This document shows positions 14,521 to 57,035 of a stretch of 64,000 nt of DNA, piece after piece. Source of the DNA: Heliocidaris erythrogramma (taxonomy: Eukaryota; Echinodermata; Echinoidea; Camarodonta; Echinometridae); contig CM046871.1 in the NCBI GenBank assembly GCA_025617745.1, positions 34,355,579 to 34,419,578 of the forward strand, read 5' to 3'. The position numbers and the translations under genes are program-made. Numbering within the stretch: the first letter of the stretch is position 1; each line of letters begins with the position of its first letter. A model generated the notes under the pieces. The model was not told the origin of the DNA. It saw only the letters and a program-made list of their open reading frames with translations, and did not search any database.

Positions 14521-14875
14521 GGTTGCATGTCGTTTTTTTGTTGTGGAAAGTTCATCATTTCAAAGTTTCGCTTGTCCGGGGGTACATAATTGCGAAAGGT
14601 TCGTAATTCCGAAGGTTCGTAATCTCTAAAAATGAAATATTGTTCATAATTCAAAAAAGGAAAAAAGGCTTTGTCATTCTGAAAATGAAATAGGGTTCAT
14701 AATTCCGAAGGTTCATCATCCCGAAAATGCAATAGAGCCATATTTAATTTTCGGAATTACGAACCTTGGGAATGGTGTAAACTATTTCGTTTTCGGACTT
14801 ATAAACCCCCTGGTATGAACAATTCGTGTTTCGAAAATATGGGCCCTGGGAATTATGAACCTTCGGAAAAACGAT
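14521..14875. mobile_element. Foldback element with GGTTCATAATTCCGAA words, copy 1
   Basis: The left half is full of GGTTCGTAATTCCGAA-type words and the right half carries the inverse, TTCGGAATTACGAACC. The whole is an imperfect palindrome of about 350 bp centred near 14730. The outer left end reads GGTTGCATGTCGTTTTT, matching the inverse of the right end of copy 2 at 44134 (AAAAACGACATGTAACC). The short open frame at 14815-15000 is part of the word array and not a gene. Confidence 0.7.
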
Positions 14876-18467: not shown

Positions 18468-19447
18468 TAGGTTTTCCCGGTCAATTTCGCAGATTTGTCA
18501 TTCAATTTGATAAGGGAGTCATTCAAATTCGCGAAAAAGATCTGTGCCATGAAATTTATCATTCAAATTCATTTTGAGGTCATTCAAATTCGCGCTTCGG
18601 TCAAGACATTTAGCGTTTACATCATTCAAATTCAAATATGCGTGGGGAGCATTCAAATTCGCTACCTCGCTTGGAAGCGTCTTTTCGAGCATTCAAATTC
18701 GCACGTGGGCATTCGAATTCGTAATGAGTTCATTCAATTTAGCATGTATTTAGCGTTTGTGTGTATTTGCTCATCTATTCAAGTCGTAATGTTTAAAATA
18801 ACATGTTTTGTCATGTACAGTTGTTGCAGCTATATATATATATATATATATAGTTAGACATGAAAAAAATCAATCAAGAAAATAAATGAAAAAAAAAAAG
18901 ATTATGAAAAAAAATAAAAATCAATCAAGAAAATCTGCAATTCTGCAGGCACTATAAACGTTAGAAATGAAGAACAAAATTTCCTAGAACTAAATTTCAA
19001 AATGATGATAAATCAGAAGAAAATAAAATAGAAATAATAAATCATAAGAAAAATAAAAGAATGTTATTGACTATAGAAAAACATATAAGGAAAGAATGAA
19101 AATACCAAATAATTATCAACTGACAAAATTTACTGGAACTACATTTGATTTTGAATGCTCAACGTGTTAAGTTGAATGATCCGAAATGAAATTGAATGCT
19201 GGAATAACATTATTGCGCAATTCCCTTGCCATTCTTTGCTAAATTGAATGAACGTTTTGCGAACTAGGTGCATTTAGTGCGAATTTGATTGACAAAAACT
19301 TAGATTCAAATGACATAAATACAAATTCGAATGATATGAAAATGAATTTGAATTACAAATCGGCTGTGCGCGACCTAAATCCTTGAAATTGAATGCACGC
19401 AAAATGAAATTGACTGATGATCTTACGAAATTGACCGGGAAAACCTA
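18468..19447. mobile_element. 980-bp foldback element with CATTCAAATTCG words
   Basis: The terminal inverted repeats begin TAGGTTTTCCCGGTCAATTT, with the perfect inverse at the right end. Both ends are flanked by TAATA (18463-18467 and 19448-19452), giving a candidate 5-bp target duplication, although TA-rich context makes its length uncertain. The left arm carries about nine copies of CATTCAAATTCG-like words. The right arm carries the inverse, CGAATTTGAATG. The centre is A-rich with a (TA)n at 18831-18852. There is no transposase frame, so it is non-autonomous. Confidence 0.8.
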
Positions 19448-21275: not shown

Positions 21276-21279
<4 letters not shown>

Positions 21280-21430
21280 ACTAACGGGTACATTAAGTCG
21301 ACACCTAACAATGCAGTTTATTTCGTCATAATAGCGACCCCTACATTAGGTCGACAGTTGGTACATTAGGTCGACAGTTGAACAAAGAAAAAGAACAAAA
21401 ACTGTCCTCCTAATGTACCCGTTAGTCGTT
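21276..21430 (+). mobile_element. 155-bp MITE, family A copy 1
   Basis: The ends are GACTAACGGGTACATTA (from 21279) and the inverse TAATGTACCCGTTAGTC. TA flanks each side, within TA microsatellites. The word GGTACATTAGGTCGACAGTT occurs twice in tandem, plus variants. Copy 2 at 56857-57011 differs at only about two positions. It has no coding content. TA flanks are compatible with a Tc1/mariner-type enzyme, but the family is not recognised. Confidence 0.85.
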
Positions 21431-21589
21431 TATATATATGACTTTTCCTGATGCCTATGGCCGAAAATTCTAATATTTTCATGGTATACATTTTCCTTAC
21501 TCGCTTGTCTTGTTCCTTAACTTTGCAAGTCCGAAGCAGAACTATCATTTGTATACACACACCCACACACACACACACACGCACACACG

Positions 21590-21780
21590 TTTACATGGCT
21601 TTACTTCCGAGGACAACTATTGTTCCTCTATTGTTACTCGTCCTCGGACAGTCGACGGAATAAAGCATAAATTCATTGTTCGACGTTCGAGGACTATTGT
21701 CCGGCTTCCGAGGACCATTGTTGTCATGATTTTTTTTTTGTTCTCTGTCCGAAAATGTCCTCGGACATAATGCTAAACAC
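21590..21780 (+). repeat. Word-bearing module B, copy 1
   Basis: About 190 bp built from CCGAGGACA / TGTCCTCGGA words in both orientations, with TTTACATGGCTTTACTTCCG at the left end. It contains ACGGAATAAA at 21655-21664 and TTTTGTTCTCTGT near 21736-21748. CA-repeat sequence lies on both sides. An almost identical copy starts 391 bp downstream. Confidence 0.8.
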
Positions 21781-21807
21781 ACGCACACACACATTCACAT
21801 ACGTGGA

Positions 21808-21942
21808 CTTGTGGGGAACTCTATTCATTTCTCCTATTGTGTTTTGTACCCCACAAGCACTTCTCTTATTGTATTTTGTACCCCACAAGCATGACGGAAT
21901 AAATGGCATCACTGTGCTCTTTTGTTCTCTGTACCCCACAAG
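21808..21942 (+). repeat. Word-bearing module C
   Basis: About 135 bp starting CTTGTGGGG and ending CCCCACAAG, a 9-bp inverted repeat. TGTACCCCACAAG occurs three times inside or at the end. It contains ACGGAATAAA (21894-21903) and TTTTGTTCTCTGT, both also present in module B. It lies between the two B copies. Confidence 0.75.
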
Positions 21943-21980
21943 ACTATCTATGTAAAACCACACCCACACACACAACCAGG

Positions 21981-22148
21981 TTTACATGGCTTTACTTCCG
22001 AGGACAACTATTGTTCCTCTATTGTTACTCGTCCTCGGACAGTCGACGGAATAAAGCACAAATTCATTGTTCGACGTTCGAGGACTATTGTCCAGCTTCC
22101 GAGGACCATTGTTGTCATGATTTATTTTTTGTCCTCGGACATACTGCT

Positions 22149-22152
<4 letters not shown>
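21981..22152 (+). repeat. Word-bearing module B, copy 2
   Basis: It matches 21590-21780 over almost its full length, except for a short indel and substitutions near the T run. ACGGAATAAA is at 22046-22055. It is followed by (CA)n and (TA)n. Confidence 0.85.
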
Positions 22153-22196
<44 letters not shown>

Positions 22197-22257
22197 TTAT
22201 ATATATAAAACTCGCAAAAAATAACAATAAATAAACTGCGTAGACAAGTTAAAAATT

Positions 22258-22380
22258 GCGAATTTTCACCCTTAGGGCTTTATAAAGTATGATTTATTTT
22301 GAATGAAAAAATAAAATTAAAATTATAATGTTTTATTCAAAATAAATCATATTGGATAAAGCCTTAAGGGCGAAAATTCG
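22258..22380. repeat. Long hairpin, arms about 50 bp
   Basis: CGAATTTTC-CCCTTA-GGCTTTAT...ATGATTTATTTTGAATGAAA (22259-22309) pairs with TTTTATTCAAAATAAATCAT...AAAGCC-TTAAGGGCGAAAATTCG (22330-22380). The loop is A/T-rich and about 20 nt. Small mismatches are present. The origin is unknown; it could be a short MITE. Confidence 0.7.
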
Positions 22381-22588
22381 TGATTTTCAACATGTCTGCG
22401 GAGTTTCTTCATTTATTGTTTACGATTTACATTTCATCTCCGAGCAGAATTTCTATTTTTTCATGTATATACATGTATATGTCGCTTGTCTTTGTTCAAA
22501 ACTTACCTGCCCACGACAAAGGAATTGAGGTTGAAGATTTGTCAATCTGTCGGTCAATTAAATCTGGCGTCGCCGAAACCACTAGCCG

Positions 22589-22652
22589 TCTCCGTGGTCT
22601 AGAAAGCATTGGCGTTTTAAGCCAACGACCCGAGTTCGATTCCCGGCGGAGA
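22589..22652 (+). tRNA. tRNA-like sequence with shortened D arm (pseudo-tRNA)
   Basis: The acceptor strands TCTCCGT and GCGGAGA pair (one wobble). A 5-bp anticodon stem TTGGC/GCCAA closes the 7-nt loop GTTTTAA, so the anticodon would be TTT. The variable region is 4 nt. The T arm CCGAG-TTCGATT-CCCGG has one mismatch. Between the acceptor and anticodon stems there are only 13 nt, too few for a normal D arm. The B box AGTTCGATTCC is one base off consensus. It is therefore likely a tRNA pseudogene or SINE head rather than a working tRNA. No intron or obvious SINE body follows. Confidence 0.45.
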
Positions 22653-22705
22653 AATTTTTTCAACATTTGCAAAAAATTCAAAAAGAGATGACATCTCTGG
22701 GGAAC

Positions 22706-22935
22706 TTTGACTTAAGTTACACAACCATTATTCTCTCATTTTCTTTTTTTTTCACAATTACATATATACCTCAAGTATTACATAATTTATATATATTTTT
22801 AAAATCACTACTCATTGTCATTATTGATATTACTACATCATTTTATACAAAATTCCTATCAATGCAGTTTATTCCGTCACAATAGAAATTCGACGTTAAG
22901 GCGAAAGCGACCGTGCATTAAGGCGAATGATAACG
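22706..22935 (+). repeat. Diverged relatives of the 56.7-kb hairpin and family A
   Basis: AAGTTAC-CAACCATTATTCTCTCATTT at 22714-22743 matches the right arm of the hairpin at 56730-56770. At 22861-22925, AATGCAGTTTATTCCGTCA followed by AATAG and GCGACC-like text matches the interior of family A, but the repeated word is different (TTAAGGCGAA instead of ATTAGGTCGAC). The same left-to-right order occurs around 56.7-57.0 kb. Confidence 0.55.
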
Positions 22936-23536
22936 ATAGGCTGAGATGAAAGGATTCCCCCTAACCATGCTAACGCCGGAATAAGAGTTATTATTATTAC
23001 TGTTATCTCATCTACCCAATCCAAATATGCTTGAATGGCATTAAGTAACGAGGAAATGACGATTCAATTGCAGTGCTAGCTTCCCCAACCCCGAATCCAG
23101 TTCCAAAACGTCATGTGGGCAACATTTTCTTGTTATTTCGATACAAGGAACTTCATGTTTAACAGTGTCACATGTAATACGGTATGTCTGGTAAAGGTGT
23201 TCATCTTTAGTGTTTTGTAAACAGCACTTCCACTGTCATGTCAGAAACCAATTTATTAATCTTAAACCAAATTAAAAAAATTCTTTAAAAAAAGTATAAC
23301 TGCTATCCCGGAGGAAAATAAATATTTCATAGCCTGTAGAATTAGCCGATTATTTACATGCATTAAATATGAATTTGAAGGGGAAGCAAAAAAAAATGAG
23401 ATTAATGTCAGAAGGAAAAGACAAAGTGGACGAATCGCAATGACGTTAGTGCATGCACTCTGAAATAAATAGTCGATAGGCCGCCTGCATGCACGGCTCG
23501 GTAATATAATTTGTAGAGGCTTACGTTCTCTCTCTT

Positions 23537-33786: not shown

Positions 33787-34909
33787 GACCCCGTTTACAC
33801 AGAGACTGAACTCGACTTTAGTCGAATTTGAACTCGAGTTCATTTGTGTGTAAACAGGGTAGTCGCAATTAGAACTCGAGTTCAAAACTCGAATTCGAAT
33901 GACGACCCAGAGCAACATTTATCGAATTCAAACGCGACTTTTATCGAATTTAAATTCGCTATTTGCTGTGTGAACGACACGTAATTGAAAGTCGACTAGC
34001 AAATATCCAGCCAGTGACCCCGTCATACGTCACTTCCGGTATTGCTAAGCAACGCGTCAGTAAATAAGCGTCATCCAACAAGTGAACCACACAACGCACG
34101 AACGATCCTACAAAACCCGCCGAAGTCACCAGGAAAATTCAGACAATGCATCCAAATCAATAGAAAAAACTGGCTATTTGAGCAATTTAGCTACAAGCAA
34201 ATCTTTAAAATAAAATTTTATCCATTACGGCAGGTTTGTGGGAGCGGGTCACATATCGATTCTGATCCATGACATGTACAATAGGTAAATGTGTGAAAAA
34301 CTGAAATGGAGGCTAAATAACAGAGTTGTCAAGTTTATAGCTAGGTTTATTCAGGCAAAGATATTGGCAAATTACACTATAAATGAAGCATTGCGTTGCA
34401 TATAGCTCAAACTATTTTAATGTTAAACAATTAACCAGTAAATCACTGAAGTATCTTGTAAATTCTACCTTTTGCAGTCTTTCGCCCCCCCCCCCCCCCA
34501 AAAAAAAAGGCGGCTGGATTGAAGAAAAAAATCTTCCCACCATCTTCTTAAACGTTCTGCTCGACGAGCAGATCTGACACGTTGCTGTCGCATATAATTA
34601 TTGATCAGGATATTCCTATTCCGACGTAAAATCATACGAAACCAGATCAAAATGACTGCCCTTACAATACTCGCTACCACCATTTTGAACTCACTCGCGG
34701 GGTTTTCACAAATTTAACCCGGAAGTTGATAATCACGATATTCCCACCAAGCGAGGGCGTAATCAAGTCGAATTCACTTTCCTTCTGAATTCGAGTTCGT
34801 CCAATGCTTGGTGTAAACAGCCCACCGAAAAATAATTTATGCTAATCCAAGGTCGCAATTGAATTCGTTGTCGAATTTGAACTCGAGTTCACTCTGTGTA
34901 AACGTGGTC
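33787..34909 (-). mobile_element. Harbinger-like element, tandem copy 1 (1.12 kb)
   Basis: The terminal inverted repeats are GACCCCGTTTACACAGAG on the left and the inverse of GACCACGTTTACACAGAG on the right. TAA lies on each side (33784-33786 and 34910-34912). The subterminal regions are packed with GAACTCGAGTTC, GTCGAATTTGAA and GAATTCGA words in both orientations. Copy 2 (34913-35618) lies head to tail and shares the central TAA. Copy 1 has ~400 bp more interior, including the start of a minus-strand reading frame. The orientation is set by that frame. TWA target sites point to PIF/Harbinger. Confidence 0.82.
34465..34683 (-). pseudogene. Possible N-terminal stub of a Harbinger-type transposase
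   Basis: This minus-strand frame of 72 codons starts with ATG just inside the right subterminal region. It gives a hydrophobic leader, then an Arg-rich stretch RRAERLRRWWEDFF (about codons 40-53), and runs into a poly(G)-derived Gly run. Arg-rich, Trp-pair N termini are common in HARBI1-like transposases, so I infer the remnant of the transposase start next to the 5' end. In copy 2 the corresponding frame stops at about codon 12. No catalytic DDE motifs remain. It could equally be a chance frame. Confidence 0.3.
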
Positions 34910-34912
34910 TAA

Positions 34913-35618
34913 GACCCCGTTTACACAGAGACTGAACTCGACTTTAGTCGAATTTGAACTCGAGTTCATTTGTGTGTAAACAGGGTAGTCGCAATTAGAA
35001 CTCGAGTTCAAAACTCGAATTCGAATGACGACCCAGAGCAACTTTTATCGAATTCAAAGTCGACTATTATCGAATTTAAATTCGCTATTTGCAGTGTGAA
35101 CGGACACGTAATTGAAAGTCGACTAGCAAATATCCAGCCAGTGACCCCGTCATACGTCACTTCCGGTATTGTTAAGCAACGCTGAGCGTCGCGTCAGTAA
35201 AACAAGCGTCATTCAACAAGTGAACCACAACGAACGACGACACGTTCACCGAACTGGCTTGATTCAATCCACCACGCGCTCATCATATCTGCAAATATTC
35301 GTCCATAATTTTGTAATTCCGACGTAAAATCATACAAAACCAGATCAAAATGCTGCGCTTACAATACTCACTACCGCCATTTTGAACTCACTCGCGGCCT
35401 TTGTCGCGGGGTTTTCACAAATTTAACCCGGAAGTTGATTATCACGATATTCCCACCAAGCGAGGGCGTAATCAAGTCGAATTCACTTTCCTTCTGAATT
35501 CGAGTTCGTCCAACGCTTGGTGTAAACAGCCCACCGAAAAATAATTTATGCTAATCCAAGGTCGCAATTGAATTCGCTGTCGAATTTGAACTCCAGTTCA
35601 CTCTGTGTAAACGCGGTC
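34913..35618 (-). mobile_element. Harbinger-like element, tandem copy 2 (706 bp)
   Basis: It has the same terminal repeats and word arrays as 33787-34909 and is flanked by TAA at 34910-34912 and 35619-35621. The first ~280 bp and last ~300 bp are close matches to copy 1; the middle is shorter. It is non-autonomous. Confidence 0.82.
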
Positions 35619-37320: not shown

Positions 37321-37850
37321 AGGCCGTATTTATCATTTTCTACCTTGTCGGAAATTTTTGGAAGGGGTCCCCAGTTTGAAAAAAAAAATATTTTAATGAT
37401 TTTTTTTCATCATTATGATTTTCCAAAAAAAATCTATTATTTGTACTATTCATCATGACTTTCAATACAATGAAACAAAACAAAGCAGAATGCAAAACCA
37501 TAATGATGATGATGCGTTTCACAAGCAAACATTAACTCTCTGTGACCGTATCATTTTTTGCCTGATGAATGTTTTTGTTTTTTGTGCTATTCATTTCATC
37601 CAGTGCTAATTGACGCTGTAGTTTCGCGAGATGAGAGCTTGACGGAAAGACACACACCATATTTATAATGATGATGATGGTGCATCGAGTGTATTTAATT
37701 ACCAGGATGTTATGATGAGGTGTCACCTGTATCAATTTACATGTATCACCTTTACATCCGTATAGAAGACCCTAATATGAAGAAGATGGCCGTTGCCATT
37801 AATTAAAACGACAACGCGTTAAAGCGCTGTGCCACGTGAGAACATGTATA
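37321..37850. other. Non-coding sequence upstream of the LINE
   Basis: Contains short GATGAT and AAAAAA patches; no gene was found. Confidence 0.5.
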
Positions 37851-39209
37851 GGTCTATGGGATCCTGAAAATTTGGCAAATTATCGGCCAATATCAAATCT
37901 AAAATTTATCTCTAAGCTGACCGAAAGAGCTGCTGTATCACAACTTCAGAATTATCTTTGTACGAACAACCTCTATCCGAAGACACAATCTGCTTATCGA
38001 CCTTACCATAGTACAGAGACTGCCCTCCTTCGTGTTAAAAACGACATTTTGCTTGCCCTGGATCAGCACAGAGAAGCTGTGCTTGTGCTTCTAGACTTCT
38101 CAGCTGCTTTCGACACAATTGATCATACCCATCTCTGTCATCGCTTCTCCTCCCACTTTGGCATCAGTGGAATAGTTCTTAAGTGGTTTTCTTCTTACCT
38201 GAGTAATAGAAAGCAATCTGTCGTCATTGACTCAACTAATTCTGATTATCATCGTCTTTCGTGCGGTGTTCCGCAGGGCTCTGTGGCAGGGCCCATAGAA
38301 TTCATCTTATTCAGCGCTCCTCTGCAAGACATCATATCTGCACATGGTGTCTCCTCTGTAGCTTATGCCGATGATACCCAGCTCTATATCACCTTTGACC
38401 CTGCTGAACGTGCATCTGCCGTCTCTAAAATGGAAGCCTGTATTCGTGACGTGAAATCTTGGGCTGTCCAAAATAATCTTGCTCTTAATGATTCTAAAAC
38501 TGAAATAATCTTTTTTAGTTCACGATTTACCACATCACTACCTCCTCCCACCTTCCAAATTGGTCACTCTACCATCACCCCATCGCATGTCGCCAAAAAC
38601 CTAGGAGTATTCATGGACTCTTCTTTAACCATGAGAAACCACATCGATCATCTTTGTAAGTCAGCACTCATGGCCATTAGAAAGATCAGTAAAATTCGTC
38701 GTTATCTTGATGATGACACTGTATCTCGATTAGTTCATGCCCTTGTCACCTCCAGACTTGATTTTTGCAACTCTCTTCTTTTTGGTCTCCCTGGTAAAGA
38801 TCTTACTAAACTCCAACGTATCCTAAACATAGCTGCCCGCCTCATCTCACGCGTCCCTCCATCTCACCACATTACACCTATTCTTCAAAATCTTCACTGG
38901 TTACCTATTAACATGCGCATCACCTACAAGATTAACCTCCTCACCTTTAAGTCAATGGCTGGACTCTCTCCTACATATCTATCTGATCTCCTACAACCTT
39001 ATATCCCATCACGGACCCTACGCTCTTCATCTCAATCCCTCCTTCAACTTCCACGCCGCATTTCATCTACATCCTATGGACGAAGATCACTTTTACATGC
39101 CGCCCCTGCATTATGGAACGACTTACCACTTTATATTCGTACAGCAAACAATGTGAACACTTTCAAATCCTTGTTAAAAACCTACTTGTTTAATGTTGCC
39201 TACGCTTGA
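37836..39209 (+). pseudogene. LINE reverse transcriptase, C-terminal 450 codons
   Basis: The frame opens at 37836, but recognisable protein begins at DPENLANYRPIS (codons 9-20). RT motifs are clear. LVLLDFSAAFDTIDH (codons 83-97) has the first catalytic Asp. SCGVPQGSVAGP is at 142-153, where most relatives have VLGP. YADDTQLY (177-184) has the catalytic Asp pair. The C-terminal region has LHWLPINMRITYKI and GRRSLLHAAPALWNDLPL, typical of CR1/L2-type ORF2 tails, and ends at NTFKSLLKTYLFN before the stop. The absence of stops or frameshifts over 450 codons indicates recent insertion or purifying selection before it. The apurinic endonuclease and RT N terminus are absent, so it cannot move by itself. 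It would act on LINE RNA at the target site in the nucleus. Confidence 0.88.
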
Positions 39210-43408: not shown

Positions 43409-43799
43409 CTCTCTCTTCCCCTCATCTTCTATCTCTCCCCATATATAATTCTTGGTCTTCTCCTCTTTTTTTCACACACCGAATACCATTGTGTCCTCAT
43501 TCATTTACATGGCTGGCACTCGTAACACTATAATATGGAATCAGAAACCCAATCAATGTAATTATAGTGAATTATGTTTACCTTTCCGTGTGTAATTTTC
43601 CCTTATGTATTGCACTTTTTAATAAGCTTTGTGTTTTATATGTTTACATTTTCTGTATGTTGTATATCGATGTAACGTTTTAGCTTTGTATAAATACTGT
43701 TCGATTCAGCTCTCGGACTGTGATGCGATATTTTTCTTTAATAAAGCATACCATTATCATAATTATATATGAACGGGGGGGGGGGGGGGGGGGAGTACT
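43409..43799. other. Non-coding; poly(G) at 43777-43793
   Basis: The G run lies directly before the next foldback element. Confidence 0.5.
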
Positions 43800-44134
43800 C
43801 CTTTTTCCGAAGGTGCATAATTTCGAAGGTTCGTAATTTCGAAAATGGAATAATTCCGAACATGAAAAAGGGTTCATAATTCCGAAAACGAAGTAGGGTT
43901 CATACTTCCGAAATGAGAAAAGGGTTCATAATTCCGAAAGGTTCGTAATTCCGAAAAGGCAATACAGTCCTATATAACTTTTCGAAATTACGAACCATTG
44001 GAAATATGAACCCTTTTTTCATTTTCGGAAATGTGAACCCTATTTCATTTTCGGAATTACGGACCGTCGGAGTAACGAACCCTCGGAAATACGAACTTTC
44101 GGAGAAACGATCCTTCGGAAAAACGACATGTAAC
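43800..44134. mobile_element. Foldback element with GGTTCATAATTCCGAA words, copy 2
   Basis: The same word grammar as 14521-14875: left half GGTTCATAATTCCGAA variants (about six), right half TTCGGAATTACGGACC variants. The palindrome centre is near 43970. The right end is GGAAAAACGACATGTAACC. Words are better preserved than in copy 1. Confidence 0.75.
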
Positions 44135-45208: not shown

Positions 45209-45499
45209 CAGGACACATTCTAGACCATGGCCTTTAAAAAAAATCTGTTTATACAAAATGTTTGCTGTGCGTCAGCGAACAGTTTGGATTTGTAAATCGA
45301 TCATCTTTATTCCGTGTATATGTTCTATGCGACCGTCTAAAAATAGCGAAGCCATACTGTGTCGATTCGATTGAACACAATCCTTCTGCAGCGTATTAAA
45401 TTAATGTGTTATATCGTTAAGATCTTAATGGCAATATTAATCATAAAACTAATATTTTGTAGAATGAATATTAGCTATAAAATTAAACATTTTATTCTA
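45209..45499. other. AT-rich non-coding spacer
   Basis: Nothing recognised. Confidence 0.5.
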
Positions 45500-53221: not shown

Positions 53222-53865
53222 TGCCCCATTTACATTTGGTCTACGATCATCGTAGGGTGACCGTAAACTGATCGTATCCCTCTGATCTCCCTGGGGTGGC
53301 ATACGACGATCGTACGATTTTCGTACGGATTCACGGTCTCCGTAGCCTCTACGATTTTGTTTAGCGCGGAGTTATACAAATTTTTCAAAATCGTAGGATC
53401 GTAGCCCTTAGAAACATCGTAGGTGGCATCGTACGATCAGCGCAGGGTCATTGTGCGGAGGCCTTGCGCTGATCATGCAGAGAGCGTACGATTTTTTTTC
53501 AACAGGGGAGCAAAAAAGCATCGTAAAGAAATCGTAAGATCGTAAGGTATCCGCACGATCATCGCACAGCCTCTGTACGGAAATCGCACGATCTCTGTAC
53601 GGTTTCCGTGAATATGTTACTGTAACCGCGCAGAAATCGCACGATCTCCCTACGACCTCCGTACAATCTCTGTACGATCTCCGTACAGCCTCTGTACGGA
53701 TTTGTCTTTGGTCCCTCTACGATGCCCAGTACATGAAATCGCACGATGACCGTAAATAATGTAAACATTACCGTAGCCCGTAGCCACCTACGATGTCCCC
53801 CAAATCGCAAGGAAAATCGTAGACTAATCCATCGTACGATGACCGTAGCAAATGTAAACTAGGCA
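53222..53865 (-). mobile_element. Harbinger-like MITE with CGTACGAT words, copy 2
   Basis: The ends are TGCCCCATTTACATTTG and CAAATGTAAACTAGGCA, flanked by TTA at 53219-53221 and 53866-53868. It is homologous to the reverse complement of 25814-26548; for example TCTACGATTTTCCTTGCGAT and CATCGTAGGTGGCTAC are shared. Words such as TCCGTACGG, GATCGTACGA and ATCGCACGAT fill the interior in both orientations. No transposase was found. Confidence 0.82.
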
Positions 53866-56856: not shown

Positions 56857-57011
56857 TTTGACTAACGGGTACATTAAGTCGACACCTAACAATGCAGTTT
56901 ATTCCGTCATAATAGCGACCCCTACATTAGGTCGACAGTTGGTACATTAGGTCGACAGTTGAACAAAGAAAAAGAACAAAAACTGTCCTCCTAATGTACC
57001 CATTAGTCGTT
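56857..57011 (+). mobile_element. 155-bp MITE, family A copy 2
   Basis: Same as 21276-21430 apart from about two substitutions, in the same orientation, again flanked by TA at 56855-56856 and 57012-57013. TA-rich tracts lie nearby. It contains TTTATTCCGT (56898-56907), the inverse of ACGGAATAAA. Confidence 0.88.
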
Positions 57012-57035
57012 TATATATATATATATATATATAAT

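Follow-up and report, generated by a model that had tools for sequence, protein, structure and literature searches.

Short elements in the window and the question they raise

The window analyzed here, a 64,000-bp stretch of the Heliocidaris erythrogramma genome (C19:34355579-34419578 of a 1.06-Gb assembly, to which the genome-wide counts below refer), contains several short elements that look alike in their scaffolds but carry different short repeated sequences, here called words (Table 1). Do these elements form one lineage in which the word has been exchanged while the scaffold was kept, as a preliminary description proposed, or do they merely share an AT-rich 10-mer? The words named in that description are present at the positions it gave, and the 10-mer ACGGAATAAA, which it reported as common to B1, C and B2 and inverted at 22868 and 56898, is exact at all five places. 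The window has one more exact copy, at 45306(-), which was absent from the earlier list and where no words were seen. When up to one mismatch is allowed, the 10-mer has 19 matches in the window against 9.0 ± 3.4 in shuffled sequence, and 19 was reached in 1 of 100 shuffles.

Table 1. Word-bearing elements of the window and their parts (window coordinates)
Feature	Position	Strand	Remarks
Element A, copy 1 (A1)	21276..21434	-	set in (TA)n
A1 words	near 21287-21304, 21340-21358, 21360-21378; 21402-21421		last one inverted
A1 core	about 21307-21334		inverted
Element B, copy 1 (B1)	21589..21785	+	word TCCGAGGACA; core 10-mer at 21655; in (CA)n
Element C	21797..21960	+	word CTTGTGGGGTAC; 10-mer at 21894
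C words	21808-21819; 21847-21857, 21879-21889, 21932-21942		first forward; other three reversed
Element B, copy 2 (B2)	21980..22159	+	10-mer at 22046
Element D (mixed)	22855..22966	-	core inverted, about 22858-22885
D inner words	22897-22906 and 22918-22927		TTAAGGCGAA
D outer word	about 22952-22964		TTAGGGGGAATCC / GGATTCCCCCTAA
Element A, copy 2 (A2)	56857..57015	-	10-mer inverted at 56898-56907; in (TA)n

The two A copies are 98.8% identical over 167 bp and the two B copies 97.5% identical over 157 bp. With the 10-mer read forward, A has the order W1(+), spacer, W2(-), W3(-), core, W4(-), with inverted arms of 37 bp (84%), and the word order of C is the same; B is arranged as W(+), W(-), core, W(+), W(+), W(-). 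The statement that each word occurs in both orientations is correct for C in that its first word is inverted relative to the other three, but the rest lie on the same strand. Element D, previously described as a patch with a single word, is real but longer than was claimed, and it is mixed. A and D have a common scaffold of 31 bp (90% identity for A1; 94% for A2, E 1.4e-8) on which the words differ; by eye, D has one additional word unit past this shared stretch and, after GCGACC, carries its own word where A carries that of A. Relatives of D lie at three loci on C1 (L001, L007 and L061).

When the words are masked, the scaffold score of A with D was reached in 0 of 1,000 shuffles, that of C with D in 2, A2 with C in 2, B with D in 3, A with C in 16, B with C in 19 and A with B in 71. 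Judged from the window scaffolds, the A-D relationship is firm and the C-D and B-D relationships modest; the A-B likeness is without significance from the window alone.

Several other features lie in the same window. A near-perfect palindrome (22226-22413) has 93-nt arms that are 82% complementary and 2 nt apart, and a tRNA-Lys (TTT) gene or tRNA-derived repeat (22588-22654) adjoins the cluster. At 14580-14870 and 43790-44120 there are further word-mosaic repeats, whose words resemble GGTTCRTAATTCCGAA and occur in both orientations; private-word repeats are found at 18480-18750 (CATTCAAATTCGC, one orientation), at 53550-53850 (ATCGCACGAT with CTGTACGG), and at 33790-34000 and 34700-35110 (GAACTCGAGTTCA with GTTTACAC ends). 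There is a reverse-transcriptase frame of the Pfam RVT_1 family at 37803-39209 and, by its look, a Penelope-like frame at 1292-2547.

The core and its families in the genome

The COX1 of this assembly, translated with the echinoderm code, is 95-96% identical to that of sea urchins (Prionocidaris, Cidaridae, Echinocrepis) and at most 92% identical to that of named sea stars and sea cucumbers, as befits an echinoid. Genome-wide, the 10-mer has 13,229 occurrences, compared with 8,554 of its reversed pattern, and a longer core, TATTRTGACGGAATAAANNNNATTGTT, has 1,954 matches against 0 for its reversed control. Chance sharing of an AT-rich 10-mer is rejected by this core count for the families that we call group I (A and its relatives); for the A-B pair, chance is less than fully rejected, in view of the 71 shuffles given above.

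The first 100 10-mer sites in the list, every one of them located on C1, were examined with their surroundings and sorted by eye. Word-mosaic elements make up 47 of them, 28 belonging to group I and 19 to group II (five of family fam9, four of fam11, and seven further copies of B and three of C). The remainder comprise two tRNA-linked repeats (13 and 10 sites; e.g., L057, L048 and L102), a local cluster at L067 (9), three other repeats (10 together) and 11 singletons. In the tRNA-linked repeats and L067, the 10-mer is accompanied by similar neighboring bases and no words, and in comparison with group I these sites outscore all 21 unrelated sites, in a test that favors group I. The core of about 20 bp that the tRNA-linked repeats have in common with the word elements may be a module of unrelated repeats. 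A role for it as an snRNA-type promoter element (TTTATTCCGT before U6 genes) was considered and is rejected for U6, as TTTATTCC is absent from the three 3.1-kb U6 loci that were read of eight fetched. There is a tandem array of U6 genes in which the genes recur about every 1.5 kb (C2:10570953-10591130). Rfam gave nothing but tRNA matches in the window and 20 loci.

Forty loci chosen from the C1 list of the core contain 42 core matches; the majority have the group I layout, and one (L116) is degraded. Together with the A copies, the window and loci read earlier, they give 103 group I elements, which fall into 21 clusters at 78%. For family A, at least 40 copies scored among 1,665 first-look candidates are full-length and match at 99-100%; they are spread over many contigs, and by the identity of these scored copies it is a young, mobile-like family. 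Fifteen families were compared, eleven in group I (A included) and four in group II (B, C, fam9 and fam11).

Elements are about 110-200 bp long. In group I the outer words form an inverted pair, the first forward and the last reversed, accompanied by a constant core, and there are usually one or two additional reversed words between the outer pair. The first and last words are inverted in the families examined and thus make terminal inverted repeats like those of MITEs, with which the elements also share their short length, their many copies and the similarity of those copies (the A copies; the core in 1,954 places). A single lineage that kept its layout and core while the word came to differ is supported for group I, with D as a mixed relative. 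The outcome named in the preliminary description as refuting its proposal did not appear for group I, whose copies align far past the 10-mer.

Words, template and private triplets

The words fit one template, nnTTAGNNNGACA, in which TT and GA are nearly invariant and columns 7-9 are family-specific (15 families, by eye); the private part is thus a triplet. The words do differ by family, as had been noted, yet they are variants of one template and not unrelated sequences. With slots placed by eye on this template, word agreement is 0.894 within an element and 0.609-0.628 between families in the same slot (0 of 1,000 permutations). In a nearest-word test with slots placed in the same way on 55 words from 14 families, 29 words had their nearest other word within their own element, 18 had a tie and 8 had it elsewhere; 300 shuffles gave a mean of 1.1 and a maximum of 6. 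Family 114, whose words are mixed, was kept in the 15-family comparison and left out of the nearest-word test. In group I, conservation is higher in the core (0.857) than in the words (0.657), and the core is the higher of the two in 52 of 55 family pairs.

A comparison of 28 representatives (the 21 clusters and seven added by hand, with the group II stretch set by hand) gives a similar picture. The stretch after the core matches the upstream stretch of its own element better than those of others, both inverted (9.54 versus 8.16 of 11 positions) and direct (9.39 versus 8.16 of 11), in each case with 0 of 5,000 permutations. The element's own upstream stretch is best or tied in 15 of the 28 when inverted and 14 when direct, only about half, because many of the representatives are sister clusters with similar words.

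One exact scaffold has 229 W1 copies and 262 W4 copies, and among the first 100 listed W1 places the triplets are CTG (48), GTG (29), GAG (15) and six rarer ones. Joining by coordinates the first 100 places listed of each gave 38 elements with both W1 and W4. Their two triplets are identical in 24 of the 38 (shuffles: mean 13.4, maximum 23, n=10,000) and their first letters agree in 33 (shuffles: mean 18.2, maximum 29), although these shuffles overstate independence since the copies are related: triplet and scaffold travel together, CTG copies with ACGGAATAAA and most GTG copies with ACGAAATAAA, and the 38 are not independent. Loci L095 and L128 have closely similar scaffolds; column 7 distinguishes them in each of their three words, and there are a few further differences in words and scaffold.

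Agreement within elements is incomplete. In family A, W1 is GAG and W2-W4 are GTC in 36 of 46 copies; the slot tally covered the 103 group I elements, 34 of them without a recognizable slot. Twenty copies were chosen among the first 100 W1 places so that all nine triplets were represented; they are not a random sample, and they are of several kinds. All six GTG copies repeat GTG in their first middle word; the last word is intact in three of them and is again GTG, and one copy has ATG as its second middle word. The three CTG copies have middle words of CCG type (CGG), one of them decayed, and end in CTG. The five GAG copies have GTC/GTA (four) or GTG/GTA (one). Copies with the rare first-word triplets (ATG, GTA, TTG, GTT, GTC and CTC) all six differ from their middle word, as would be expected of single late mutations. 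The mixed elements (D, L007, L119 and L174) speak for change in steps or by recombination rather than in a single jump. The idea that the word is replaced in concert thus needs amendment: it differs by family on a scaffold that is kept, but it was not replaced all at once, as the family A pattern and the mismatched rare first triplets indicate.

Do B and C belong with A and D?

The group II families (B, C, fam9 and fam11, which lie beside (CA)n) have in common a TGACGGAATAAA...ATTGT stretch and a similar layout. This stretch and this arrangement give partial support to including B and C in the lineage, with weaker evidence from the scaffold than in group I. Given the 10-mer, each family was compared with the best of nine group I references and set against single unrelated sites, a design that favors group I; fam11 scored above all 21 unrelated sites (mean 28.9 versus an unrelated mean of 22.8), and the unrelated sites that equaled or beat the others numbered one of 21 for C (25.4 versus 21.5), one for fam9 (24.3 versus 21.4) and two for B (22.3 versus 21.1).

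An alternative that we rate at somewhat less than an even chance is that A and D are one lineage and that B and C are families of their own, with a core that is a module common to many repeats. It accords with the word-free core of the two tRNA-linked repeats and L067, with the word-masked window scores of A-B and B-C (71 and 19 of 1,000 shuffles), and with the pairs B-C, C-9 and 11-9, whose scores are reached in 134, 130 and 135 of 1,000 shuffles when words are masked and the 10-mer is held fixed. The same analysis gave 4 for 11-C, 10 for B-11 and 46 for B-9; the first two of these argue against separate families, as do the rank of fam11 above every unrelated site, the word order that C shares with A, and the fit, by eye, of the B and C words to the common template. 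Descent of B and C from the same lineage as A and D is moderately supported by these comparisons.

Flanking repeats and insertion sites

Group I copies lie mostly in or adjoining (TA)n or (TAA)n, and group II adjoins (CA)n. The left flanks of 22 group II copies have the CA strand in 17, TG in none and are undecided in five; their right flanks are CA in 12, TG in three and undecided in seven. All six arrays seen in these contexts (B-C-B, B-B, B-C, two of B-9, and C-9) have a single orientation. Copies of the group I family fam7 are found in (TAA)n of either orientation, and some copies sit outside long tracts. The 3' ends of A are GTCAAATA in 40 junctions, which is compatible with a TA duplication, but the flanks there are rich in TA, and some junctions of fam7, judged by eye, agree with TT or with neither.

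A possible mechanism and its alternatives

The explanation we prefer, which seems to us slightly better than an even bet, takes the elements for MITE-like sequences that dwell in microsatellites and whose words are bound by a protein acting in trans, probably a transposase. A word-bound protein acting in trans is suggested by the core counts, the agreement of words within elements, the higher conservation of the core than of the words, and the inverted outer words. The elements would be short, non-autonomous and DNA-transposon-like, living in or beside TA, TAA or CA repeats, and the protein would most likely be the transposase of a longer relative; the core would bind an unchanging partner. 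If the specificity of the transposase shifted, elements whose word copies followed, by mutation, by conversion of one copy by another or through recombination of different families, would be amplified, and this amplification of the followers would look like concerted replacement.

A more specific reading, possible but to our minds not quite an even chance, is that the some 15 sister families represent a transposase-type recognition code that was rewritten repeatedly on a shared scaffold, as a 3-bp triplet in a fixed frame and in three to five copies in both orientations, with half-rewritten intermediates and 2.47 kb full-length partners surviving. The mismatched rare triplets lower the odds of this series of rewritten codes as well as of the preferred explanation. 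Candidate long forms are present at C6:3764538-3767003 (2,466 bp) and C6:5007374-5009850 (2,477 bp); they are recognized by CTG-type W1-W4 pairs in the correct order and strand. None of 31 MULE hits falls inside these long forms, and the six MULE loci that were read have no core and only scattered template matches, so a MULE is not supported as the mobilizing partner. No DDE_Tnp_4 match was found in the long forms among the 150 scored of 581 candidates. Three of the MULE hits (C5:7601573, C5:35056271 and C9:45889172) have identical scores and an open frame of 861 aa; the one of these loci that was read has no core nearby.

The words could instead be sites of a host DNA-binding protein, such as a repressor or architectural factor, and their diversification a host arms race. 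A repressor or enhancer array would also produce spaced copies and a constant core, and the core is present in word-free repeats as well; we nevertheless think this rather unlikely, since the outer words form the inverted element ends, where transposase sites are expected, and escape from a repressor does not require the words of an element to agree. Recombination through the repeat tracts, rather than cut-and-paste movement, might drive both spread and arrays, with the words serving excision or nothing. The CA-strand bias of the group II left flanks and the uniform orientation of the six arrays are what such recombination might leave, but the right flanks are less clear, fam7 occupies (TAA)n in both orientations, some copies are outside long tracts, and the CA tract may simply be part of the element; this explanation is unlikely. 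It is very improbable that the words are kept by selection for a hairpin, in which forward and reversed copies pair in RNA or single-stranded DNA and change by compensation: words 1 and 2 of A, B and C can indeed pair, with about 20-25 bases between them as a spacer, but the further reversed copies, which one hairpin would not need, carry the private triplet too, and the template flanks TT and GA scarcely vary, as in a binding site.

If the more specific reading, a series of rewritten recognition codes, is correct, the elements would be a readable record of a DNA-binding transposase and its sites changing together. When a transposon alters the address of its enzyme, several copies of the site must change together, and this is hard to observe since as a rule nothing but the end states is left. 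In this one animal, many states are preserved on a recognizably common scaffold, among them mixed ones, and the order of change, the role of conversion between copies and the protein side would become testable.

Comparison with known systems

Short transposase sites that are repeated near the element ends are a feature of pogo, the P element, CACTA elements and Tn7; the pogo transposase, for example, binds a 12-bp site in its ends. To our knowledge, the sites of related elements stay alike in these systems, and the sea urchin elements differ from them, so far as we know, in that conservation is higher for the inner core than for the words at the ends. The element junctions would be compatible with the TA duplication that, with a DDE_1/DDE_3 transposase, marks the Tc1/mariner-pogo group, but they lie in TA-rich flanks. 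No prior account of such a word-family system was found in the open-licence literature, as judged by titles and abstract openings.

The closest parallels are in plants. MuTAnT elements of Medicago are 200-300 bp long and lie in (TA)n with flank expansion; they have 144-bp foldback arms, a Mutator-like partner and 9-bp duplications outside perfect (TA)n, and the account drawn on here describes two subfamilies and no word series (PMC4486113). The A elements resemble them in residing in (TA)n and differ in having no 144-bp foldback arms in the manner of MuTAnT (PMC4486113). A Mutator-like transposase with shared ends, a feature of MuTAnT and SaTar, was not found here among the 31 MULE hits, of which six loci were read. 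The SaTar elements of guayule and rice are small, non-autonomous, inverted-ended and flanked by microsatellites, and form non-nested linear arrays of families; they are 400-1700 bp long and Mutator-like, with 10-bp duplications in some copies (PMC5907723). Their authors offered, as a speculative model, circles that recombine into microsatellites (PMC5907723). The occurrence of fam7 in both (TAA)n orientations departs from this model. The parts of the SaTar report used here, which concerns plants, mention no common core with private repeated words, but the sea urchin elements are like SaTar in their microsatellite flanks and non-nested arrays (PMC5907723), and would be an animal counterpart to these plant arrays.
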